This document shows positions 17,187 through 33,515 of a stretch of DNA of 33,797 bases, piece after piece. Position 1 is the stretch's first letter, and the number at the start of each line of letters is the position of its first letter. The position numbers and the translations under genes are program-made. The notes under the pieces were generated by a model that ran no database searches, was not told the origin of the DNA, and saw only the letters and a list, made by a program, of their open reading frames with translations. Origin of the DNA: Dehalococcoidia bacterium (GTDB taxonomy: Bacteria > Chloroflexota > Dehalococcoidia > SM23-28-2 > HRBIN24); contig JAVVHA010000018.1 of NCBI GenBank assembly GCA_032249735.1, forward strand, positions 1-33,797. The letters run 5' to 3'.

Positions 17187-18293
17187 ATGAGAAGGCCTGA
17201 CGTCCTCATCGTTGGTGGTGGCATCATCGGCTGCGCCCTGGCCTACTACCTGGCTAAGGAGGGGGTACGAGCCACCGTCCTGGAAAGAGGGGAGATAGGG
17301 GGGGAGGCATCAGGGGCGTCAGCAGGGATGCTGGCTCCCCTGGCCGAGGCCCATGGGCCTGGCCCCTTTCTGGACTTAGCCTTGAAAAGCCTGAACATGT
17401 TCCCCGTTTTGGTGGAGGAGTTACAAGAGCTTACAGGCATCGATACGGGATACTCGCAGTGTGGCCTCCTACGGGTATCTTTCTCTCCCGCCGATGATGA
17501 ACAGCTAAGGGCACGCTATCTGTGGCTCTCCTCCCTCGGCATGGGCGTGGAGCTGCTAAGGGGGGAGGAGGCCCGCCTCCTGGAGCCGCGGCTATCGCCC
17601 CAGGTGACCATGGCCCTCCTCTCACCACAGGAGGGGCAGGTGGAGGCGAGCTCCATGACCCAGGCTCTGGCCGAGGCGGCACGTCGTCTGGGTGCTAGCA
17701 TCGAGGTGGGGGCCGAGGCTTTAAGCCTCCTCCACCGCAAAGGGCGGGTGATGGGCGTGCGCACATCCCGGGGCCGGCTCCTGGCTGCCACAGTGATGGT
17801 GGCAGCCGGCGCCTGGAGCGGGCGCCTTCTCAAGGCTGTGGGTATCCCCATCGATACTCCTCCCGTTCGGGGCCAGATGGTGGCCTACCGTGGTTTGGTG
17901 GTGCGCCACATCATCTGGGGACCAGAGGGGTACCTGGTGCCCAAGACACGGGGCTTCACCTACGCCGGGGCTACGGTGGAGAGGGTGGGGTTCCGGCCCC
18001 ATACCACACGGGCAGGCCTCCGCCGTCTACGTCGCATGGCTGGCCATCTGGTCCCGTTTCTGGCCAGGGCAGAGGTGGCTTCCTCCTGGGCAGGCCTGCG
18101 TCCGGGTTCGCCCGATGGTTTGCCCGTGATCGGCCCTTTACCCCGATGGGAGGGGCTGTGGGTGGCCACCGGGCACTTCCGCAATGGCGTCCTCTTGGCC
18201 CCCATCACCGGCCAGGCCCTGGCCCGCTGGCTGGTGCGCGGAGAGGCTGCGGGCCTGGAGCCCTTCTCTCCCGCCCGCTTCTTCACCTCCTGA
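17187..18293 (+). CDS. thiO: Glycine oxidase ThiO
   Basis: The 368-residue FAD enzyme opens with the Rossmann motif VLIVGGGIIGCALAYYLA and has GEIGGEASGASAGMLAPLAE, the signature of ThiO-type glycine oxidases. The C-terminus WAGLRPGSPDGLPVIGPLP is also typical of the family. ThiO oxidises glycine to the imine (dehydroglycine) that ThiG uses to build the thiazole ring, in place of the ThiH route. The thiamine neighbourhood supports this over other D-amino acid oxidase relatives. It overlaps the convergent thiE gene by 11 bp. No riboswitch is seen upstream of its short operon with the metallo-hydrolase. Confidence 0.9.
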   Translation: MRRPDVLIVGGGIIGCALAYYLAKEGVRATVLERGEIGGEASGASAGMLAPLAEAHGPGPFLDLALKSLNMFPVLVEELQELTGIDTGYSQCGLLRVSFSPADDEQLRARYLWLSSLGMGVELLRGEEARLLEPRLSPQVTMALLSPQEGQVEASSMTQALAEAARRLGASIEVGAEALSLLHRKGRVMGVRTSRGRLLAATVMVAAGAWSGRLLKAVGIPIDTPPVRGQMVAYRGLVVRHIIWGPEGYLVPKTRGFTYAGATVERVGFRPHTTRAGLRRLRRMAGHLVPFLARAEVASSWAGLRPGSPDGLPVIGPLPRWEGLWVATGHFRNGVLLAPITGQALARWLVRGEAAGLEPFSPARFFTS

Positions 18294-18918
18294 AGTGGAA
18301 GGCCAGCCGAAGGGTGGCCTCCCGGGGGTCAGGGGCGGACACGACTGCTCCGATGACGGCTACCATGTCCGCCCCCGCTTCAAGGACCAACCTCACGTTG
18401 CTCTCATCGATGCCGCCGATGGCACATACAGGCACCCTCACCGCCCCCTTCACCGCTCGCAGCGTGTCCAAGGTGGCGGGCCGGGTATCGACCTTGGACG
18501 CCGTGGGAAAGAGACGCCCCACCGATACGTAGTCAGCTCCCTCCTGCTGCGCCCGCAAGGCCTCCGCCACGTTGTTGGTGGAGCACCCTACGATGAAATC
18601 CCTAGGGGCCAGACGGCGAACCACCGCCACTGGCAAATCGTGCTGGCCCAGGTGGACTCCCTGTGCCCCGCAGGCGAGGGCCAGGTCCAGATGATCGTTG
18701 ACGATGAAGGGGACGCCTGCCTCCCGACATAGGCGGGATATAGCCTCGGCCACCGGCAACTGCAGACCCTTGGGGCGGGTCTTGTCGCGCCACTGGAGGA
18801 TGCTCGCCCCCCCTTTCAGGACGGCCTGCGCCAACGCCACCTCGTCCCGGCCACCGGCCACCTGGTGGTCGATGATGACGTACAGCCCCCGCAACCTATG
18901 GTCCCAGATGGTGGACAT
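18283..18918 (-). CDS. thiE: Thiamine-phosphate synthase ThiE
   Basis: The 211-residue TIM-barrel enzyme joins the pyrimidine diphosphate (HMP-PP) to the thiazole phosphate. Visible family motifs are ILQWRDK (for the usual QLR-K), FIVNDHLDLALACGAQGVHLGQHDLP, VGCSTNN, GADYVSVGRLFPTASK and CAIGGIDESNV. HLGQ-DLP and the S/T-rich FPT-SK loop are those of true ThiE. The second family member at 20550 lacks them, so this copy is the better candidate for the synthase. The start ATG is 34 bp from the divergent hydrolase GTG, so a short shared promoter region is likely. Confidence 0.9.
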   Translation of the reverse strand: MSTIWDHRLRGLYVIIDHQVAGGRDEVALAQAVLKGGASILQWRDKTRPKGLQLPVAEAISRLCREAGVPFIVNDHLDLALACGAQGVHLGQHDLPVAVVRRLAPRDFIVGCSTNNVAEALRAQQEGADYVSVGRLFPTASKVDTRPATLDTLRAVKGAVRVPVCAIGGIDESNVRLVLEAGADMVAVIGAVVSAPDPREATLRLAFHFRR

Positions 18919-18952
18919 ACCCGACGCTAAAATAGCAGGCAGGGGAGGGACG

Positions 18953-20095
18953 GTGAAGGCCTTCCTGAGACGCTATTGGCTCGCCGTGGCCATCTGCCTG
19001 GTGTTCGTGTCCATAGCATCCTTCCTATGGGCTTGGGGGCCTTCGCGCCTGGCCGTCCGCACCCTGATGCTTTACCCCCATATCCTGGCGGAGCTTCCCG
19101 CCCCCCTCGCCCGCCTGCAGGGCCCCCAGCCCCAGGTGGAGACGTTGGTCTTCGCCGCCCCCAACGGCCTCACCGTGGAGGCAGACGTCTACCGGCCGCC
19201 AGGAAGTGGCCCTCACGGTGCCCTGCTGGTGGTCATGGGGGCAGCGCCTGAGGCCCGTCATCACCCCCAGGCGGTGCGCCTGGCCCAAGCCGTGGCCCGT
19301 ATGGGCCGCGTGGTGATGCTGCCAGTCCTCCCCTACCTCTCCCATGATGTCCTGCACCCCGACGATAAAGAGGCGGTGGTGGCCTCCTTCCTTTATTTGC
19401 GGGCTTTGCCTTATGTCGAGTCCAATCGGATAGGCATCTTGGGGTTTTCCATAGGTCAGGGCATCGCCTTTGCCGCCGCCGCCGACCCGAGAATAAGCCA
19501 GCTGGTCCACAGCGTGGGGTCCTTCGGCGGTTATTACGATGTGCGTGAGCTCATCGCTGCCGTGGCCACCGGGGCCATGCCCACCGCCCAAGGATGGCAG
19601 AGGTGGCAGCCCGCCCCTAGGGCCCGCCAGGTGCTGCAGCGCAGCCTCCTGTACTATGTTCCCGACGCCAGGGAGCGCGAGAGATTGGCTATAGCCCTGG
19701 AAGTGGGCCGCCTTCCCCTTGGCGAGGTCTCGCTGACGGCAAGCCTTATTTACCAGGTCCTGAACGCCCAGGACCCCTTGCTGGCCCTACAGGCCCTCTC
19801 TCAGGCCCCGCCGGAGCTGGCGCGGGTGCTGGACATCCTCTCCCCCCGTACCCATCTACAGAATGTGAGGGCACCCGTCTTCATCGTGGCCGACCGGCAC
19901 GACCCATTCGTCCCTTATACACAGTCCAGAGCGCTACGGGACGAGCTGCGGGCGATGGATCGCCACGCCATCTACTCTGAGCTGACCATCTTCCGGCACG
20001 TGACTCCAGCCCTGCAGGCCAACCCGTTGGCTTTCCTGGCCGATATTATGCGCCTGTGGGGTCAAGGGTTCGGGTTCCTGGCCCGTCTGCGCTAG
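18953..20095 (+). CDS. Membrane-anchored alpha/beta hydrolase
   Basis: The 380-residue protein has one N-terminal hydrophobic helix (about residues 8-28, WLAVAICLVFVSIASF) and then an alpha/beta-hydrolase domain, probably facing outside the membrane. Key elements are the nucleophile elbow GFSIGQG, an acid in VADRHDPFVP and a His in IFRHVTP. A GTG start is chosen because GGAGGG lies five bases before it; the open frame upstream runs through the divergent thiE gene and is rejected. A TAAAAT box (18928) could be its -10. The family resembles dienelactone-hydrolase-like or acetyl-esterase proteins; the substrate is unknown. It shares CTAG at its stop with the small YtxH-like gene. Confidence 0.8.
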   Translation: MKAFLRRYWLAVAICLVFVSIASFLWAWGPSRLAVRTLMLYPHILAELPAPLARLQGPQPQVETLVFAAPNGLTVEADVYRPPGSGPHGALLVVMGAAPEARHHPQAVRLAQAVARMGRVVMLPVLPYLSHDVLHPDDKEAVVASFLYLRALPYVESNRIGILGFSIGQGIAFAAAADPRISQLVHSVGSFGGYYDVRELIAAVATGAMPTAQGWQRWQPAPRARQVLQRSLLYYVPDARERERLAIALEVGRLPLGEVSLTASLIYQVLNAQDPLLALQALSQAPPELARVLDILSPRTHLQNVRAPVFIVADRHDPFVPYTQSRALRDELRAMDRHAIYSELTIFRHVTPALQANPLAFLADIMRLWGQGFGFLARLR

Positions 20096-20262
20096 GCCGC
20101 CTCCTGCTGCCGCCGCAACCTCTCGCGCACTCTCTCCAGGGCAGGGGCCGTCCGTTCCCGGATGCGCTGTCGCATCTCTGCCCCGGCGCTGGGCGCCACC
20201 ATGAGGCCCAAGGCCAGTCCTACCACCAGCCCCATCAAGAAGCCGACCAACAAGCCGCGCAT
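20092..20262 (-). CDS. Small YtxH-like membrane protein
   Basis: This 56-residue product has one N-terminal Gly-rich hydrophobic helix (LLVGFLMGLVVGLALGLMVAP) followed by a charged tail (RQRIRERTAPALERVRERLRR). The helix, APSAG-type hinge and Arg/Glu-rich tail match the YtxH/gas-vesicle-like small proteins, which carry stress-related or structural roles at the membrane. It is last in the minus-strand thiamine run, 36 bp after the thiS stop, and may be co-transcribed without being functionally related. Its stop codon overlaps the convergent hydrolase stop within CTAG. Confidence 0.75.
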   Translation of the reverse strand: MRGLLVGFLMGLVVGLALGLMVAPSAGAEMRQRIRERTAPALERVRERLRRQQEAA

Positions 20263-20298
20263 CGCTCTCCACCCCCCGCTCGAACATCTAACACCATT

Positions 20299-20553
20299 CT
20301 ACCGCCAAAAAGATGTCGCCCCCCATCTTGTGCTTGTGCAGTGTGGCATCCCAGCGCCACCGCCCACCATGCGCACCACCTCTAGGACGTCCCCCTCCTG
20401 AAGGGTGACCTGGGCCCACAGGTGACGAGGGACCACTTCCCCGTTGCGGGCCACGGCCACATGTCGGGCATCGGCCGGCAGCTCCGCCACGTATTCGGCG
20501 ATGGTCATGGGGCGCGGGAGCTCTATCTGCTCGCCATTGATGATGACCTTCAT
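20299..20553 (-). CDS. thiS: Sulfur carrier ThiS with unusual C-terminal extension
   Basis: The 84-residue frame begins like ThiS ([50 protein letters not shown]). ThiS carries sulfur as a thiocarboxylate on its terminal Gly and gives it to ThiG for the thiazole ring; the family normally ends at Gly-Gly. Here the frame goes on for 18 residues after GGG (residues 64-66), ending TSFWR. The tail must therefore be removed, or the protein is altered by a frameshift or sequence error. The start ATG overlaps the tenI-like stop (ATGA). No ThiF or protease candidate is present in this window. Confidence 0.85.
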
Positions 20554-21197
20554 GCCCTTAGCCCTGCCCAGCTCCTTTCCAAGGCCTCCCGCAGGCGCCG
20601 GGCCGCCGCTATCATGTCCCCGCTACCCAATATAGCAGATATGACAGCTATACCTGCCGCCCCTGCCCTCACCACCTCCGTCACCCGCCCTTCGTCGATG
20701 CCACCGATGGCCAGCACAGGTATCTTTAAGGCACTGGCCACGTCCCGCACAAGTTGAGGCCCCGCCCCTGCCACCCCGGGATGGGAAGGAGTGGGATATA
20801 TAGGCCCTACCACTACGTAGTCCGCCCCCTCCTCTTGTGCTCGCAGGGCCTCTTTCAAGCCATGGACGGACCGGCCCACCAGCATCCTCTCCCCCACCAG
20901 ACGGCGGGCAGCGGCCACTGGCAGGCCCGCCTCGGGGAGGTGGACGCCTTGAGCATGGCAGGCCAGGGCCACATCCACCCGGTCGTTGATGACCAACAGG
21001 GCTTCGTCTGCCATGGCCCGGCGCAGCTCCAGCGCCAAAGCCAGCAGCTGGCCAGCCGGGAGGTCTCTCTCTCGGAGCTGCACCACCCCTACCCCACCTG
21101 CTGTCGCCTGGGCCACCGCCTGGGGCAACGGCAGAGAGGACAGGTGGCGGTCGGTCACCAACATGAGGCAGGGAAGGGGCAAAGATGATGCTCTCAC
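20550..21197 (-). CDS. tenI: ThiE/TenI family protein, TenI-like (probable thiazole tautomerase)
   Basis: This 215-residue TIM-barrel protein resembles ThiE ([30 protein letters not shown]) but differs where ThiE and TenI diverge. It has VHLPEAGLP instead of HLGQ-DLP, LVGRSVH instead of G-ST, and [13 protein letters not shown] in the phosphate loop. Those match Bacillus TenI, which aromatises the thiazole tautomer made by ThiG. Its place between thiG and thiS supports this. The chosen GTG at 21197 follows a Gly-rich ribosome site; another GTG exists at 21218 without one. A role as second thiamine-phosphate synthase remains possible. Confidence 0.75.
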
Positions 21198-21283
21198 CCC
21201 TTCACCCCCCTCGCTCACGACATGAGGGTGAACGAAGGAACCTCATCATCGGAGTGCCAAGGCCAGGGAGGGAGGTCAACACC

Positions 21284-22066
21284 TCAAGAGGCTGGCCTGG
21301 GCACCCCCTCCATGGGGCTGGAGGCCTCCGCCAGGGCCTTCTTGGGGATGCGGCCCGCCAAGAAGGCCTTGCGTCCCGCCTCCACCCCCAGACGAAAGGC
21401 CTCCGCCATGAGGACCGGGTCCTTGGCCTGGGCGATGGCCGTGTTCACCAGTACAGCATCGGCCCCCACCTCCAGGGCCAAGGACGCGTCGGATGGGGCC
21501 CCAAGGCCAGCATCCACCACCACTGGCACTTTGGCATTCTCGACGATGATCTGGATCTCCTCCAGGGTAAAGATGCCCCGCCCAGAGCCTATGGGCGAGC
21601 CCAGGGGCATGACGGTGGCACACCCCACCTCCTCCAGCTGCTTGGCCAGCACCGGGTCGGCGTGGATGTAGGGCAGCACCACGAACCCCTCCGCTACTAG
21701 CTGCTCCGCCGCCCGCAGTGTCCCGATGGGGTCGGGCAGGAGGTAGCGGGGGTCGGGCACCACCTCCAGCTTGATCCAGTTGGTGCCCGTCAACTCCCGC
21801 GCCAAGCGAGCGATAAAGATGGCCTCCTCAGCGGTGCGGCAACCGGCCGTGTTGGGCAAGATCTGATACTTGTTCCAATCGATGTAGTCCATGAGGTTGG
21901 GCTCACCTGGCCGATCCAGGGGGAGACGCCTTATAGCCACCGTCACCATCTCCGCCCCTGAGGCCTCGATGGCCTTCACCATCTCCTCCATGGACCGGAA
22001 CCGCCCCGTGCCCACAATGAGACGGGAGCGGAACTTCTTGCCAGCGATCTCTAGGTAGTCCTCCAT
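21284..22066 (-). CDS. thiG: Thiazole synthase ThiG
   Basis: The 260-residue TIM-barrel enzyme condenses deoxyxylulose 5-phosphate, dehydroglycine and ThiS thiocarboxylate into the thiazole phosphate. Motifs seen are LIVGTGRF near the N-terminus, [20 protein letters not shown], the catalytic Lys99 in [31 protein letters not shown] and [13 protein letters not shown]. The start ATG follows a purine-rich site that sits in a tandem duplication shared with the thiC stop. It forms a minus-strand run with thiC upstream and tenI-like and thiS downstream; ThiO elsewhere in the window would supply dehydroglycine. Confidence 0.95.
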
Positions 22067-22069
22067 CCC

Positions 22070-24087
<2,018 letters not shown>

Positions 24088-24122
24088 GATCGGGCCTGTC
24101 CACCGGCAGGCTCTACCGTCAG

Positions 24123-24149
24123 CTTATACCCCTGCCCAAGGGATGTCAA
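24123..24149 (-). promoter_or_regulatory. Promoter for the riboswitch-thiC-thiG-tenI-thiS unit
   Basis: On the minus strand a perfect TTGACA (24149-24144) is followed after 15 bp by TATAAG (24128-24123). It overlaps the last codons of thiD. The transcript would start about 30 bp before the aptamer, so thiD would not be under riboswitch control from this promoter. Confidence 0.6.
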
Positions 24150-24964
24150 CTCGCCCTTTCCGGGGGAGCCCGCCACCAGGCCCAGAAGTGGTGCAAAGGC
24201 CGCCGCCCCCGACCCACGGGGAAGGCATGGGCCAGGGCCTGGGCCACGAAATCCTTGGCCTGGCGCACAGCCTCCAGGGGCTCCATCCCCCGCGCCAGGA
24301 AGGCAGCGATGGCCGTGGCGAAGGTACAGCCGGTGCCATGGGCCGCCACCCCCTGCAGCCGGGGGGCCGAGAGCTCCAGATAGGCTTGGCCGTCATAGAC
24401 AAGGTCCACTGCCAACGGCCCCTCGCCATGCCCACCTTTCACGACCACCAGTTTTGGCCCAAGGGACCGGATCTCCTTGGCTGCCAACCGCATGTCAGAC
24501 GGATCCCCCAGGGGGTGACCCACCAGCCTCTCCGCCTCCGGCAGGTTAGGGGTGACCACTGTGGCCAGGGGGAGGAGGAGACGCCTCAGGGCCTCTATCC
24601 CGTCATCCGTGAGGAGAGGGAAGCCATCGTGGGAGGAGATAACGGGATCCACCACCAGGTGGGGGAGGGAGTGTTCCCGCACCTTGGCAGCCACCACCTC
24701 CACTGTCTCCGCCGTGGCCAGCATGCCCGTCTTGACAGATGCCAAGGCCATGTCACGAGCAATGGCGTCCAATTGAGCAGCCACCAAGGCAGCGGGCAGG
24801 GGAAATACTTCCCTGACCCCCGCGGTATCTTGAACGGTGACGGCCGTGACCACCGTGGCCGCATAGACTTGCAGCGCGGCACAGGTCTTGAGGTCGGCCT
24901 GGATACCTGCCCCCCCACTGGGGTCGGAGCCAGCGATGCTCAATACGCATGGGGTGCGGTCCAT
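24146..24964 (-). CDS. thiD: Hydroxymethylpyrimidine / HMP-phosphate kinase ThiD
   Basis: The 272-residue ribokinase-fold enzyme phosphorylates HMP and HMP-P to the diphosphate used by ThiE. Motifs are LSIAGSDPSGGAGIQAD at the N-terminus, TAVTVQDTAGV (with the pyrimidine-contacting Gln), VKTGMLA, a DPVISSHDGFPLL segment (usually DPVM-x-K-SG), TPNLPEAERL, VVVKGGHG and AHGTGCTFATAIAA with the catalytic Asp position in G-T-G-C context. The tail GRGRRPLHHF is common in ThiD. The start is divergent from yjbQ, and its end holds the promoter of the thiC unit. Confidence 0.93.
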   Translation of the reverse strand: MDRTPCVLSIAGSDPSGGAGIQADLKTCAALQVYAATVVTAVTVQDTAGVREVFPLPAALVAAQLDAIARDMALASVKTGMLATAETVEVVAAKVREHSLPHLVVDPVISSHDGFPLLTDDGIEALRRLLLPLATVVTPNLPEAERLVGHPLGDPSDMRLAAKEIRSLGPKLVVVKGGHGEGPLAVDLVYDGQAYLELSAPRLQGVAAHGTGCTFATAIAAFLARGMEPLEAVRQAKDFVAQALAHAFPVGRGRRPLHHFWAWWRAPPERAS

Positions 24965-28275: not shown

Positions 28276-28608
28276 ATGGCGGAGGGGCGAAGGTGGCGCC
28301 TTCTGAGCAATCACGGGCTCGTGCTGGCCTACATCGCCCGTGACCCCCACGCCACCCTGCGCCAGATGGCCCAAGGGCTGGGCCTCACCGAGAGGGCTGT
28401 CTACCGCCTGGTGGCCGATCTGGAGGAGGCTGGCCTTATCGCCAAGCAGAAGGTGGGCCGCCGTAATGCCTATTCCGTGAACTGGTCGCGCCTCCTGGAC
28501 CAGGAGGCGGGGCCAGCTTTCACCATGGGCGAGTGGCTAAGCCTAATTCAGAGAGGGGTGCAAGGCCTCGGCCCTCAGCCAGGCCAGGATACGGGCGGGA
28601 TGCCGTAA
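28276..28608 (+). CDS. Winged helix-turn-helix transcriptional regulator
   Basis: The 110-residue protein is mostly one DNA-binding domain: SNHGLVLAYIARDPHATLRQMAQGLGLTERAVYRLVADLEEAGLI, followed by the wing GRRNAYSVN. It resembles MarR/ArsR-like single-domain regulators with no visible ligand or metal site. The ATG has GGAGAGG close upstream. The AT-rich spacer with large inverted repeats upstream is an obvious place for self-regulation. The gene overlaps the convergent AttH-like gene by 34 bp. Confidence 0.82.
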   Translation: MAEGRRWRLLSNHGLVLAYIARDPHATLRQMAQGLGLTERAVYRLVADLEEAGLIAKQKVGRRNAYSVNWSRLLDQEAGPAFTMGEWLSLIQRGVQGLGPQPGQDTGGMP

Positions 28609-29570
28609 CGCTCGCTCCCCCCCACTACGAAGAACTCCACGATGCCATACCCCTCGTCGTCCCCGAGCCGAAAACGGCACAGCTGGTCGAACCCCACGGC
28701 CTGCTGGTCGGCCTGGGCCAGAGCCTTGGAGTCGTCCTCTGACCACCTGGGCCCTGGGCCACCGATGAAGATGGATGTCAGCTCCTGGGCCTCCAACTCC
28801 CAGTGCCCACCCCCCTCCAAAGCCAAGCGGAAGAGGCCTCGGCGGGGCCTACGCGTCCCTGGCCACAGCTCCAGCTCATGTGCCATGCCCGAGAACCTGG
28901 TGATGGGGCCCTCCTCGGGCACCTTGGCCCCATCGAAGTGGACTGCCTGGCCAGCCCGCGTCTCCCACAGCCAGGCAGTGATGCAGTACTGGGGAAACTG
29001 GGCGGAGACCCAGATCCACACGTCCACGTCCTGCAACACCCTGATGCCCCAAGACCGGTCGCGCATCCCCACCAACCCTTCTGATAACGTCACCGGGCCG
29101 ATCCGGAACTGGCCACGGTAGCGCCCGGCCTGAGTATAGTGGTACTGGCGCACCACCAGGCGCCCATCCTTGCTCCACTCGATGGGGGAGAAGGCGAAGG
29201 GCGGGCACCGGGCCTGGAACTCCAGGGAGGCGGCGATATCGTTCTCGGGGTCGGAGAGCTGCAGACGCCAGCTTTTCATGGGTTCCACCACCTGGAAGGA
29301 GAGCCCCTCCACCTGCATGTTATGGCGGTCTCCCTCCATGGCGCGGAAGCGGTAACAGGAGTAATGTTGCCCCTCATAGACCACAAATAGGTAGGCGTCC
29401 ATGGCCTGGCGGTTGGGGTAGGCACCTAGGCCAGTGATAGCTACAAACCTGCCATTCCAGTCGTGGATGTTGAAGTAGAAACGGTCCTGCCAAGCCTGGT
29501 GGTCGGAGGCCACCTGGGCGATAGGCTTCTCCGTCTGGTGGACTAAGAACTCGTCCAAGGGCCCGATCAT
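28575..29570 (-). CDS. Probable AttH/CrtC-like lipocalin-fold protein
   Basis: The 331-residue protein is rich in beta strands and aromatic residues: HQAWQDRFYFNIHDW at the start, AYLFVVYEGQHYSCYRF, a GMRDRSWGIR motif in the middle and WVSAQFPQYCITAWLWE. The GxRDRSWG block is shared with proteins of the AttH/hydroxyneurosporene synthase (CrtC) type, which have two lipocalin-like barrels and bind terpenoid or other lipids. The start ATG (29570) follows GAGGGAAGAG; the longer frame runs into the divergent peptidase gene. No catalytic claim is made. It is near SCP2-like and diiron genes, so a lipid-related role is possible. The family call is tentative. Confidence 0.6.
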   Translation of the reverse strand: MIGPLDEFLVHQTEKPIAQVASDHQAWQDRFYFNIHDWNGRFVAITGLGAYPNRQAMDAYLFVVYEGQHYSCYRFRAMEGDRHNMQVEGLSFQVVEPMKSWRLQLSDPENDIAASLEFQARCPPFAFSPIEWSKDGRLVVRQYHYTQAGRYRGQFRIGPVTLSEGLVGMRDRSWGIRVLQDVDVWIWVSAQFPQYCITAWLWETRAGQAVHFDGAKVPEEGPITRFSGMAHELELWPGTRRPRRGLFRLALEGGGHWELEAQELTSIFIGGPGPRWSEDDSKALAQADQQAVGFDQLCRFRLGDDEGYGIVEFFVVGGSERYGIPPVSWPG

Positions 29571-29654
29571 CTCTTCCCTCCCTTCAAGTCCACCGATATG
29601 ATAGCAGCAGGCCCTGGGCCCGAAAAGGAGCCCATATACGATGGAGGGATGCCT

Positions 29655-30461
29655 ATGCGTTGGATGGTCAAGCCATGGCCCTGGCAGCCCCCTAAGGTGG
29701 CCCTGGTGGAGGTGCACGGCCCCCTTCTCCAAAGTGGCCGAGTAGGAGAGCTAGCGCGGGCTATCACCGCCCTGGCCCAACAGCCCTGGGTGCGGGCTGC
29801 AGTGGTGGACATAGACTCATCCGGGGGCTCGGCCACCCTGGCTGAGCAGCTTCACCGGGCCGTGGGCCGTCTCTCCCAGAGCAAGCCGGTGGTGGCCTAC
29901 GTGAGCAATGTGGCCCTCTCGGGTGCCTACCTGGTAGCCTGTGCCGCCCGCCGCATCGTGGCCCCGCCCACTGCCCTCGTGGGGTCCATCGGCGTCATCA
30001 TCGCCAGGCCAGTGGTGCGGGAGCTGCTGGAGAGGATCGGCGTGCGCATGTTCGTCAGCCGCGTGGGAGAGCACAAGGACATGATGCAACCCTGGCGAGA
30101 GCCCACCCCTGAGGAGGTGGAGAAGTTGGCCGCCCTCCGTGATGAGTACTACGAGTGGTTCATCAGAAGGGTGGCGGAGGCCCGCCGCTTGCCCCTGGAG
30201 GAGGTGCGCAGATACGCCACCGGCGAGTTCTTTACCGCCAGCCGAGCACGGGAGCTGGGCCTTGTGGACGACCTGGGCGACCTGGAGATGGCTCTAGATA
30301 TGGCCTGCGAGATGGGTCGCACCCCCAGACAGCTAGTCTCCGTGCGGCCCCGCCGCCCTCTCCTGGAGCGCATCCTCTCGCCCGTGGGCGCCGCCCTGGC
30401 TGAACGAATGCTACAGGAGGTGGAGGCACGCCTACATATGCAGGTCCTGCTCCACCCTTAA
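29655..30461 (+). CDS. S49 family serine peptidase (SppA-like)
   Basis: The 268-residue protein matches the short S49 peptidases. PPKVALVEVHGPL opens the fold, VVDIDSSGGS is the conserved D-S-x-G-G loop, nucleophile Ser89 lies in VALSGAY, and general-base Lys141 lies in GEHKDM. SIGVIIARP and LGLVDDLGDLE are also typical. There is no N-terminal membrane anchor, unlike many SppA enzymes, though Trp-rich start residues might associate with the membrane. The ATG at 29655 follows GGAGGG with six bases; earlier in-frame ATGs fit less well. Its stop overlaps the convergent SCP2-like gene by TTAA. A role in degrading signal-peptide or membrane fragments is the family default. Confidence 0.87.
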   Translation: MRWMVKPWPWQPPKVALVEVHGPLLQSGRVGELARAITALAQQPWVRAAVVDIDSSGGSATLAEQLHRAVGRLSQSKPVVAYVSNVALSGAYLVACAARRIVAPPTALVGSIGVIIARPVVRELLERIGVRMFVSRVGEHKDMMQPWREPTPEEVEKLAALRDEYYEWFIRRVAEARRLPLEEVRRYATGEFFTASRARELGLVDDLGDLEMALDMACEMGRTPRQLVSVRPRRPLLERILSPVGAALAERMLQEVEARLHMQVLLHP

Positions 30462-30913
30462 TCTTCGAAGACCGTATCGATGCGGGAGGAAGCGTTAAAG
30501 AAGTACTGCAGGGACTGGTTGAAGCGGTAAAAAGCGTCCCGGCGCAGCCCATCGTGGGAGCGGGCAAACCCCTCCGGCATCTCCAGGTCGATGGTATTGA
30601 GGGTGTGCTGGTGGTCGGCCTTCCCGTGGGCTTTGATGTTCTCCAGCATCTCTCGCCACAGGGCAAAAGGGCCCTCCAGCCAGAAATCGGCCTCCTCTGC
30701 CTCCTCCTCCGATACCTCCCGCACGTCGGCTACCTCGAAGGCCTCGAAGGTCACCAGATAGTACTTCTGCCGGTCGGTGATCTTGATGCCCATAGTGGTG
30801 TCGCAAGTGCCTATGCGGCGGAACCCCTCATCATGGTTGACCATCTCCTTCAGGATTTGGAACCACTCCAGAGATGGGAACACCGCCTTTGCCTGGGCGA
30901 CCTCCTGAGTCAT
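30458..30913 (-). CDS. SCP2-like (sterol carrier) domain protein
   Basis: The 151-residue protein has the shape of a stand-alone SCP2 domain: a helical opening (FPSLEWFQILKEMVNHDEGF), a beta sheet (TTMGIKITDRQKYYLVTFEAF), then WLEGPFALWREMLENIKAHG and a C-terminal hydrophobic stretch (FYRFNQSLQYFFNASSRID). The domain holds a hydrophobic tunnel for sterols, fatty acids or other lipids. The ATG lies in the upstream stop (ATGA), so it is co-translated with the degenerate diiron paralogue and the active-type diiron gene. The call rests on overall pattern rather than on an invariant motif. Confidence 0.6.
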   Translation of the reverse strand: MTQEVAQAKAVFPSLEWFQILKEMVNHDEGFRRIGTCDTTMGIKITDRQKYYLVTFEAFEVADVREVSEEEAEEADFWLEGPFALWREMLENIKAHGKADHQHTLNTIDLEMPEGFARSHDGLRRDAFYRFNQSLQYFFNASSRIDTVFED

Positions 30914-32346
30914 GACGTCCCTCCCGTGGTGACGGTGACCTCTTGGTGCTGGGGAAGCCACTGCCTAAGGTAGAAGAAGAGGTATTGCCGCCTCTCGGGC
31001 ATGCCCGCCGCCTCCAGCCGCCATAGGTAGTCAGCTATCCAGCGCCGGCGGAAGCGGTGCAGCAGCTGCCAGCCCCGCTTCAGCTCCTCCCTCCCCAGGC
31101 CACCACCCAGAAGCACCACTAGGGCCTCCTGGAGGGTGGGGTCTTTATCGTCCTCGTAGGCGAAGAAGGCCTCTATCTTCTGCAGGTAGCCGTCCACTTC
31201 TAGGCGGCACTCGGGCTTACGCAGCAGGAAGTAGCGCAGGTGCTCCACCCCATAGGCCGTCTGGCGGGCCAGGTCCTGCATGGTGAGCGCGAAGATAAGC
31301 GCATCGCCCTCGCTGCGGGCCGTGTAGTAGCCCACCTGGCACAGATGCATGAGGAAAGAAGTGTTAAAGATGAACATCATGGTGGAGGCCTCGGTCCAGC
31401 GGCGGGCGTCCTTGATGGGCCGCAAGTAGTAGCCAGGGCTCTGGCGCCCCATCCCCACGCCGTTGAGGTAGGCCCGCTTGCGAAACACGTCCATGTGACG
31501 CGCATAGTCGAAGCCCGCCGTGGCCATATAAACCTTCACCTCGTGGTAGCCGTAGCTCATCTCCTTGAGCCACTTGCCTATGGTGTCGGATATGACCATG
31601 GCGTTCTGGCACATATAAGTGCATAGCTGACAGAGGGCCTGCTCCAACGGCTCAGGGAGGGGAGGGATGTCGTCCCAAGGGATGTGGGTAGCCGGCTTCC
31701 ACTGCCTCTGGATGGCCTCCTCATAGAGGTCGGCAGCGTGATCGGCCCAAAGCTCGGCCTTCTCATAGATGCTGTACCCCATGGATGGGGAGAGGGGGTT
31801 GGGTGCCGCCCCCCGGGGCATCTCCGTCTGCCGCGGCCAGTAGTCGGGGATATCGCCGTAGGAGCCCACGTTGAGGGAGCCCAAGGTAAGCCCTTTCTTG
31901 CCGGGCCTGACGCGTATGCCCCATTCCGTCCTGGCGTTCATCCACTCCAGGGTGACAGGAGGGCCTCCCGCCTCGCGGGCCCTCTCCCGCAGGATGACCA
32001 CACGCTCCATCTGGTCGGCGCGCAGTCCCGACTCCAGGAAATCCTTCACCTGCTGCATGGATAGGCCAGCGCGCACGGCCCTTTTTATGAGCTCCTCTGG
32101 CCAGCGACGCTGGCGGGCCAGCTGCTGAACCTCCGGCGGTATGTGCACCTCGCCCCCTGCCCGCACTCGCTCCTGCTCATCTAGGTAGGCGGCCACCTGT
32201 TCGGGCTGCGCCCCTGCCCTAATCTGAGCGGCTATCAGGGATGGAGGGAACCCCAGGGCCAGGGCACGGCGCACCAGATCCAGGGGGAAGCCCTTCTCAT
32301 GGGCTACCTGGGCAAGATCCTCCGGAATCTGCAGCTCCTCACCCAT
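30910..32346 (-). CDS. Ferritin-like diiron paralogue with lost metal ligands
   Basis: The 478-residue protein aligns with its upstream neighbour over the whole ferritin-like domain (for example YEEAIQRQW, DVFRKRAYLNG, EVKVYMA). It lacks most ligands: Gln247 or Ala249 for Glu135 or Glu137, Tyr281 for Glu169, Thr329 for Glu217, Leu359 for Glu247 and Gln362 for His250. Only His284 remains. It should therefore not form a normal diiron site and is probably a structural or regulatory partner. Residues 1-128 are extra and hold two similar 62-residue helical repeats (IPEDLAQVAHEKGF and IPPEVQQLARQRRW). It starts 20 bp after the active paralogue and overlaps the SCP2-like gene. Confidence 0.85.
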   Translation of the reverse strand: MGEELQIPEDLAQVAHEKGFPLDLVRRALALGFPPSLIAAQIRAGAQPEQVAAYLDEQERVRAGGEVHIPPEVQQLARQRRWPEELIKRAVRAGLSMQQVKDFLESGLRADQMERVVILRERAREAGGPPVTLEWMNARTEWGIRVRPGKKGLTLGSLNVGSYGDIPDYWPRQTEMPRGAAPNPLSPSMGYSIYEKAELWADHAADLYEEAIQRQWKPATHIPWDDIPPLPEPLEQALCQLCTYMCQNAMVISDTIGKWLKEMSYGYHEVKVYMATAGFDYARHMDVFRKRAYLNGVGMGRQSPGYYLRPIKDARRWTEASTMMFIFNTSFLMHLCQVGYYTARSEGDALIFALTMQDLARQTAYGVEHLRYFLLRKPECRLEVDGYLQKIEAFFAYEDDKDPTLQEALVVLLGGGLGREELKRGWQLLHRFRRRWIADYLWRLEAAGMPERRQYLFFYLRQWLPQHQEVTVTTGGTS

Positions 32347-32366
32347 GGCGCACCGCCCAGTGAGGC

Positions 32367-33440
32367 TCAGCTGTCTAGGAAGGCCCGCAGGGCGGGGCTG
32401 AGGCGGTATCGGCGCTCAGGCAGACCAGCCACCTCCAGCCGGTGGACATATTCGTGGACCTGGCGCCGCCGCAGCTGCATGAGCCAGTCGAACCCCTTGT
32501 CGATGTTCTTGCGGCCACCACCAGCCAGAACCATGATGGCCTCGTCGAAGACGGGGGAGGCCGCCGAGTGGCCCGACTGTATGTCTAGCGAGAGGGGGCC
32601 CTCGATCTTGTCCAGATAGTAATGGATCTCCTCCCGCCGCCAGGGCTGCGTCTCCAAGATGTGCTTGAGGTGCATGACGCCGAAGGCGATGTGGCGGGAC
32701 TCGTCTTGGGCGCAGAGGCGGAAGATGGTCTTCTCCGCCTCGCTGTAGGCCAAAGCCTCGCCAGAGCGGAAGAGGGTCTGCACCAAGGCCTCGGCGAAGA
32801 CATGCATGATGGCCGAGAACTCGCTGAAGTCCTGGCACTCCAGGATGATACGCAGCCCGGCCCCCGTGCTCTCCTGCATGAGGCCGCCGCCATTGGCCAG
32901 GGCCCGCTTGCGGAACACGTCCAGGTGCCGGGCCTCGTCCATGATCTGAGTCAGGAGGAAGAGCTTTACCTCGTACCACTCGGGGTTAATGCGCTCCAAC
33001 CACTGGCCTGGAGTGTCGCCGGCGATGAACTCTACCTCCGTAAGGAAGGTGGCGAACTGGCACCAGGCACGCTCTATGTCGTCGGGCAAGGGCTTGAGGG
33101 TGTGCCATGGGATGTCAGTGGCCGAGGACCACTGCCGCTGTACAGCTTCCTCATAGAGCAGGCGCACGTTGTCGGCCCATGTCTCGTGTCGCACTGGGTA
33201 GTACCAGTTGTGGCGAGCGGCGGCTGGGTGCCGCTGCGCCCCCTTGGGGCGGGCGGAATAGTCGTCGCTCACGTCCACCGTTTCCGTGAGGGCCTCCACC
33301 TGCTCGATGGTCAGGCCCTTGCGAGTAGGGCGCAGCCGCGTGGCCTCGATGCGCGCCCGATCCTCAGGCCTCAGCCAGTCCAACCGCAATGGCGGCAAGT
33401 CCTCGTCGTGCGTAAGCTTGTAGAGCATATCCTTATCCAT
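32367..33440 (-). CDS. Ferritin-like diiron protein (putative oxygenase/oxidase)
   Basis: The 357-residue protein has the four-helix diiron-carboxylate arrangement: Glu135 or Glu137 in FLTEVEFIAGD, Glu169 and His172 in DEARHLDVF, Glu217 in FAEALVQ, and Glu247 and His250 in DESRHIAFG. This E, ExxH, E, ExxH set is that of R2-like, AurF-like and other diiron oxidases; the exact subfamily is not settled. The N-terminal 85 residues are less conserved. The ATG at 33440 follows GGGAGGGG with five bases and is preferred to an earlier in-frame codon at 33476. It is first gene of a three-gene operon with a ligand-poor paralogue and an SCP2-like lipid carrier, behind a strong promoter. Confidence 0.87.
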   Translation of the reverse strand: MDKDMLYKLTHDEDLPPLRLDWLRPEDRARIEATRLRPTRKGLTIEQVEALTETVDVSDDYSARPKGAQRHPAAARHNWYYPVRHETWADNVRLLYEEAVQRQWSSATDIPWHTLKPLPDDIERAWCQFATFLTEVEFIAGDTPGQWLERINPEWYEVKLFLLTQIMDEARHLDVFRKRALANGGGLMQESTGAGLRIILECQDFSEFSAIMHVFAEALVQTLFRSGEALAYSEAEKTIFRLCAQDESRHIAFGVMHLKHILETQPWRREEIHYYLDKIEGPLSLDIQSGHSAASPVFDEAIMVLAGGGRKNIDKGFDWLMQLRRRQVHEYVHRLEVAGLPERRYRLSPALRAFLDS

Positions 33441-33487
33441 GCTTGCCCCTCCCCCTAGCAAGCGCTTAACCTGCAAGCTTCCCTTTC

Positions 33488-33515
33488 ATTTTATGCATGC
33501 TGACAACCATGTCAA
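33488..33515 (-). promoter_or_regulatory. Sigma70-type promoter of the diiron operon
   Basis: On the minus strand a perfect TTGACA (33515-33510) and TAAAAT (33493-33488) are separated by 16 bp, 47 bp before the ATG. TGACA and TGTCA half-sites around ACCA (33501-33514) overlap the -35 and could bind a regulator. It is the best promoter in the window. Confidence 0.7.

Follow-up and report, generated by a model that had tools for sequence, protein, structure and literature searches.

What could a cell do with a diiron protein, a relative of that protein that has lost the metal ligands and a lipid-carrier-like protein, all encoded together? The question is raised by three adjacent genes, here denoted A, B and C, in a 33,797-nucleotide stretch of DNA (the window) from a Dehalococcoidia bacterium. 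The reading we prefer, at a probability of about 0.5, is that they encode components of a multicomponent diiron oxygenase that has not been described before and occurs mainly in one class of Chloroflexota. In it A would be the catalytic subunit, B a non-catalytic subunit and C a substrate carrier, with electrons fed in by a ferredoxin.

The A-B-C operon and its surroundings

The three genes form a tight operon on the minus strand in the order A, B, C, and translation confirmed the positions at which the first-pass annotation had placed three related or partner genes (Table 1). That annotation had also called the genes overlapping, which is correct for B and C, where stop and start share 4 nt (ATGA), but not for A and B, which lie 20 bp apart. 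A purine-rich stretch, AGGGGGAGGGG, is located immediately upstream of the ATG of A, and a promoter-like site, 47 nt upstream of the same ATG, had been taken for a strong promoter. The site is a good match, with 11 of 12 consensus bases, but the scan of the region found one such site where 0.6 are expected by chance, and hence it is no evidence of function. No reductase or ferredoxin gene occurs in the window's own operon, which counts against the oxygenase reading.

Outside the operon, a gene for an S49 peptidase runs towards C on the opposite strand and shares 4 bp with the end of C. Beyond it, on the strand of the operon, another gene encodes a protein of 385 aa that matches DUF7065/DUF7064 weakly, and locus L033 has a gene of similar size at this place. 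The window also carries a group of thiamine genes, two of them ThiE-like.

Table 1. Positions of the features discussed, in the window and at related loci.
Feature	Sequence	Positions	Strand	Basis or detail
Gene A, R2/ADO-like diiron protein	window	33440-32367	minus	357 aa; translation
Gene B, paralogue of A without most ligands	window	32346-30910	minus	478 aa; 37% identity to A
Two-copy helical repeat, N-terminal extension of B	window	31963-32346	minus	self-similarity of the halves
Gene C, SCP2-fold protein	window	30913-30458	minus	151 aa; translation, AF2 model
Promoter-like site TTGACA-16-TAAAAT	window	33515-33488	minus	consensus match only
S49 peptidase gene	window	29598-30461	plus	
DUF7065/DUF7064-like gene	window	28575-29732	minus	weak matches
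ThiO, ThiE, ThiG, ThiC, ThiD-like genes	window	17187-24964		named by eye from sequences
ThiE-like gene, first	window	18283-18918		
ThiE-like gene, second	window	20550-21218		
Other gene matching PF02036	C17	901-1167		
2x[4Fe-4S] ferredoxin downstream of C	L060	8183-8479		
2x[4Fe-4S] ferredoxin downstream of C	L118	3034-3285		
2x[4Fe-4S] ferredoxin downstream of C	L134	5648-5938		
Zinc-ribbon protein between B and C	L046	4360-4662		
Zinc-ribbon protein between B and C	L047	6062-6364		
Zinc-ribbon protein between B and C	L106	5739-6038		
Fer4_20 + Pyr_redox_2 reductase	L126	7163-8770		

Gene A and its metal-dead paralogue

The protein encoded by A has a complete class-I diiron ligand set (E137, E169, H172, E217, E247 and H250; EEHEEH), arranged in the E - ExxH - E - ExxH pattern of ferritin-like class-I R2-type proteins on a predicted helical bundle. 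The AF2 model (pLDDT 84) is an R2-type bundle, whose fold matches are the VlmB homologue 6d9f (Z 24.3 over 252 residues) and VlmB (24), ADO and R2lox (about 22) and the ribonucleotide reductase R2 protein (about 20). In the oxygenase reading A would hold an Fe/Fe (or Mn/Fe) site and activate O2.

Searches of Pfam, NCBIfam and PDB sequences with the single proteins A, B and C gave nothing usable, and no Pfam family matches A at E <= 1; profiles, not single sequences, were needed. A profile of A searched against solved structures placed 6d9f first (E = 6.5e-10) and R2lox next, with methane monooxygenase at E 0.1 or worse. Three family assignments were rejected: ribonucleotide reductase R2, since A lacks a PF00268 match at E <= 1 (among 32 homologues, 19 match the same model weakly, at E 2.4e-4 at best); R2lox, since the NCBIfam score is 28.3 bits against a cut-off of 194; and, for A/B, the bacterial multicomponent monooxygenases, whose PF02332 (Phenol_Hydrox) model matches nothing anywhere in the genome at E <= 1. 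A tblastn search of plasmids with A returned a single weak match, from Xenorhabdus, and a scan of viral contigs found no relatives.

The fold matches raise the possibility that A, rather than oxygenating a carrier-bound lipid, works as R2lox or the aldehyde-deformylating enzymes do; it would then catalyse formyl removal or a two-electron oxidation, and B and C would stabilise it. ADO and R2lox are indeed among the top folds (Z about 22-24), the solved protein 6d9f is described as having aldehyde deformylating activity, and one R2lox is reported to be an alkane monooxygenase (PMC10867098). We consider this unlikely, as the fold neighbours 6d9f, ADO and R2lox share 13-18% identity with A, A falls far short of the cut-offs of the R2lox models and no acyl-ACP reductase was seen beside A.

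Alignment of A with B (37% identity over 345 aa, E = 3e-68) demonstrated that the ligand columns of A are occupied in B by A249, Y281, H284, T329, L359 and Q362. Five of the six ligands are lost, exactly as in the list of substitutions given by the first-pass annotation, and the one retained histidine, H284, leaves the window's B with one of six, short of a diiron ligand set. Outside the ligands, 22 positions show conservation of 90% or more, with the same residue in the A and B groups; the scaffold has thus been kept. The lost positions vary freely among B proteins, which leaves no sign of another conserved metal site. Ahead of its ferritin-like core, B carries a helical repeat of about 60 residues in two copies, whose halves match each other with 25% identity and 58% positives (E = 1e-7). 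The length of this N-terminal extension differs among B homologues, and the repeats might serve as a docking arm. The region also gives a weak SinI-like match.

We compared 103 A/B homologues drawn from 70-odd loci, with gene boundaries from a simple gene picker, so that starts may be off. The homologues fall into two groups: 52 retain all six ligands, 51 retain none to two, and none retains three to five. Relatives of B that restore the ligands were looked for and not found, all 51 keeping 0-2. Purifying selection acts on each of the three genes: against the two closest relatives, dN/dS was 0.06-0.13 (A), 0.10-0.22 (B) and 0.08-0.22 (C). The ligand counts of the 51 B homologues, together with these low values for the three genes, put the metal-dead pattern beyond chance. 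It is scarcely credible that B is a decaying pseudogene: the lost metal ligands would fit such a fate, but its dN/dS and the persistence of an open frame through 51 homologues argue that the gene is not decaying.

In all 35 adjacent A-B pairs A comes first, and the reversed order was never seen. A mirror-tree comparison of the distances within A and within B gave r = 0.916; none of 5000 permutations reached this value, the maximum being 0.257, although the permutation leaves shared species history in the correlation. Seven genomes hold two or three A-B pairs, and their A and B copies lie in matching subgroups of the tree. Together these data indicate that the A and B families co-diverge. The ligand split and the conserved adjacency support the proposed pairing of a catalytic with a metal-dead gene, and the gene set is conserved across other genomes, contrary to what would have spoken against it. 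We favour for B the role of a non-catalytic subunit: it would be an ancient duplicate of A that lost the metal site and now joins A in a heteromer, pairing in the manner of R2-type dimers and serving a structural, substrate-channel or partner-docking role.

The tree of A and B, built without the ligand columns, placed 48 B proteins in one clade beside 40 A proteins, and two further B proteins (L062, L113) among A proteins of another branch. A single clade for all B was rejected by the AU test (p = 0.022), with long branches involved, and the metal-dead partner thus probably arose twice, on moderate evidence. An apparently repeated origin provides a handle on why diiron enzymes gain dead subunits. 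A scan of named genomes with B found two close relatives. Two loci from a family outside the class (f76; L046 and L047 in genomes G145 and G161) carry A-B-C copies inside the class's branch of the tree. These copies may reflect transfer or contamination, and each of the two genomes is 6% contaminated.

Gene C, co-occurrence and the forms of the module

The AF2 model of C (pLDDT 90) matches 2cx7 best (Z 13.9, rmsd 2.2, 122 residues), and its closest folds are SCP2 proteins. By this model C has the SCP2 fold, which bears out the earlier view that an SCP2-like partner lies beside A and B. C has no Pfam match, and the Pfam SCP2 family, PF02036, does not match it, the only match in the genome being another gene (Table 1). 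With the fold but without the Pfam match, C belongs to a diverged SCP2-like family, one that is conserved among relatives; the missing match counts against the oxygenase reading. In that reading C would hold a hydrophobic substrate, perhaps a CoA-pathway lipid, a terpenoid or a steroid-like compound, and present it to A. That the substrate so presented is a lipid or sterol, as the first-pass annotation suggested, is a hypothesis that the predicted fold fits.

C might instead act in regulation or coupling, gating the use of O2 and electrons by a two-subunit A + B diiron enzyme, and carry no lipid. The model here is the effector proteins of bacterial multicomponent monooxygenases; C is a small protein in which no cofactor is recognised, its presence is tied to that of A/B from genome to genome, and an SCP2 fold by itself shows no function. 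We hold this to be improbable in view of the closest folds, SCP2 proteins of which many are lipid binders, and of the SCP2 protein UbiJ, which binds hydrophobic intermediates on behalf of hydroxylases (PMC6747719).

We searched 393 genomes of one Chloroflexota class, probably Dehalococcoidia, for A/B and C. A/B matches, in a search that does not tell A from B, were present in 115 genomes and C in 113, with 109 genomes having both, 6 only A/B, 4 only C and 274 neither (Fisher p 6e-84, shared descent ignored). The six A/B genomes with no detected C count against the oxygenase reading. No mismatch was seen in family f96, where A/B and C are present together in 17 genomes and absent together from at least 24. 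Genera g314 and g275 contain both states, and the set is thus gained or lost as a whole; A/B and C are mostly linked there. In families f10 and f17 C lies mostly far from A-B, so that linkage does not explain the association in those families. That C is unlinked to A-B in many genomes also counts against the oxygenase reading.

The copies of the family reach at least four per genome, and the hosts are mostly uncultured, mostly oxygen-respiring Chloroflexota. COX1 was detected in 107 of the 115 A/B genomes; the other eight (G559, G573, G579, G598, G600, G618, G625 and G720) are 70-89% complete. This co-presence fits a system that uses O2, despite 116 genomes that have COX1 and no A/B.

Besides the A-B-C form of the window, the loci contain A-A-B-C (L034), A-B without a nearby C, B-C without an adjacent A (L036-38, L109, L119-124, L129), A-C without B, and lone A genes (L040, L041, L044, L048). 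The A-C modules suggest that B is dispensable in some versions, and they count, as do B-C without A and lone A, against the oxygenase reading. From B-C operons lacking a neighbouring A (L036-38, L119-124) and from lone A genes one could argue that B acts independently, for example by binding a substrate or regulator, forms no complex with A and keeps its company through a common pathway. This account is doubtful, in view of the strict A-then-B order, the mirrored trees within multi-pair genomes and the conserved residues common to A and B across the fold.

The A-C modules without B bear on the electron source of the proposed oxygenase. Directly 3' of C, six of them encode a protein with two [4Fe-4S] motifs (L060, L118, L134, L137, L138, L139), identified in L060 as Fer4 by Pfam. 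In L140 and L143 a ferredoxin occupies the corresponding place downstream of A, and the genome search places C in each stretch; L142 is A-C without a ferredoxin. This usual position suggests that the ferredoxin, encoded beside A and C, would be the electron source. A reductase with Fer4_20 and Pyr_redox_2 domains follows an A-B pair in L126 and is a possible electron supply.

In L046, L047 and L106, B and C are separated by a Zn_ribbon_8 gene (FmdB-like, about 100 aa). The remaining neighbours on the same strand differ between loci and include CoA-transferase III, enoyl-CoA hydratase, thiolase, luciferase-like, P450, amidohydrolase and TetR genes, the first five of which speak for the oxygenase reading. 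Among the neighbours no conserved operon partner was found beyond A, B, C, the ferredoxin and the zinc ribbon. The neighbours share no one pathway, which suggests related enzymes for different substrates.

Comparison with known systems

Diiron oxygenases attack unreactive C-H bonds, and few kinds of them exist. Pfam and NCBIfam gave no family name for A or C, and searches of the open-access literature turned up no paper that describes the A-B-C combination, which does not prove that none exists; within this scope the searches agree with the first-pass statement that this is not a described system. Tentatively, at a shade under even odds, we suggest that these systems make up a class of multicomponent diiron oxygenases in its own right, which has spread and multiplied among mostly oxygen-respiring Chloroflexota. 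In this class an SCP2-fold carrier would deliver hydrophobic substrate to the diiron site, and the dead partner would have evolved independently of the known monooxygenases, twice within the family. A family present in 115 of 393 genomes, in up to at least four copies and under no Pfam, NCBIfam or solved-structure name, points to considerable oxidative capacity as yet unknown. The reason why diiron enzymes take on dead subunits is open to test, since A-C modules, which lack B, provide a natural comparison.

The nearest solved relative of A, by profile and by fold, is 6d9f, deposited as 'Putative VlmB homolog'; the carboxylate/ExxH pattern is aligned over the matched stretch, at only 18% identity. 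VlmB itself is an azoxy synthase, and we know of no metal-dead paralogue or SCP2 partner of it. R2lox resembles A in its R2-type diiron fold, six ligands and a partial NCBIfam match, but A reaches 28 bits where 194 are required. The cyanobacterial ADO shares the ferritin-like diiron fold, whereas A is longer and stands in a different gene context.

COQ7 is a ferritin-like diiron hydroxylase. It works with the lipid-binding COQ9, and their association depends on residues around the lipid-binding site of COQ9 (PMC11495197). That pair differs from A-B-C in having no dead paralogue and in the fold of COQ9. In UbiJ the SCP2 domain binds ubiquinone intermediates, as C is proposed to bind its substrate, but UbiJ serves flavin hydroxylases. 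The mycobacterial DesA1 and DesA2 are, like A and B, ferritin-like proteins; they are desaturases of lipid metabolism, and DesA2 has altered metal-binding sites, yet it is described as a homodimer in mycolate desaturation, and an SCP2 partner is not described there (PMC9050676). The parallels with the MMO beta subunit, UbiJ, COQ7-COQ9 and R2lox make each proposed step plausible rather than demonstrated here.

MMO and the toluene/phenol hydroxylases combine a catalytic diiron subunit with a paralogue lacking the metal site and a small accessory protein. The first-pass comparison with these enzymes does not hold as a family assignment, as PF02332 has no match and A is nearer to VlmB, ADO and R2lox, and the dead partner seems to have evolved separately in the two systems. 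The FAD/[2Fe-2S] reductase and regulatory protein are absent from the window's operon and from the recurrent neighbours; an SCP2 partner and a [4Fe-4S] ferredoxin appear instead. The comparison stands as an analogy: in both systems a catalytic diiron protein has a dead paralogue as partner, in the present case at the level of the genes.
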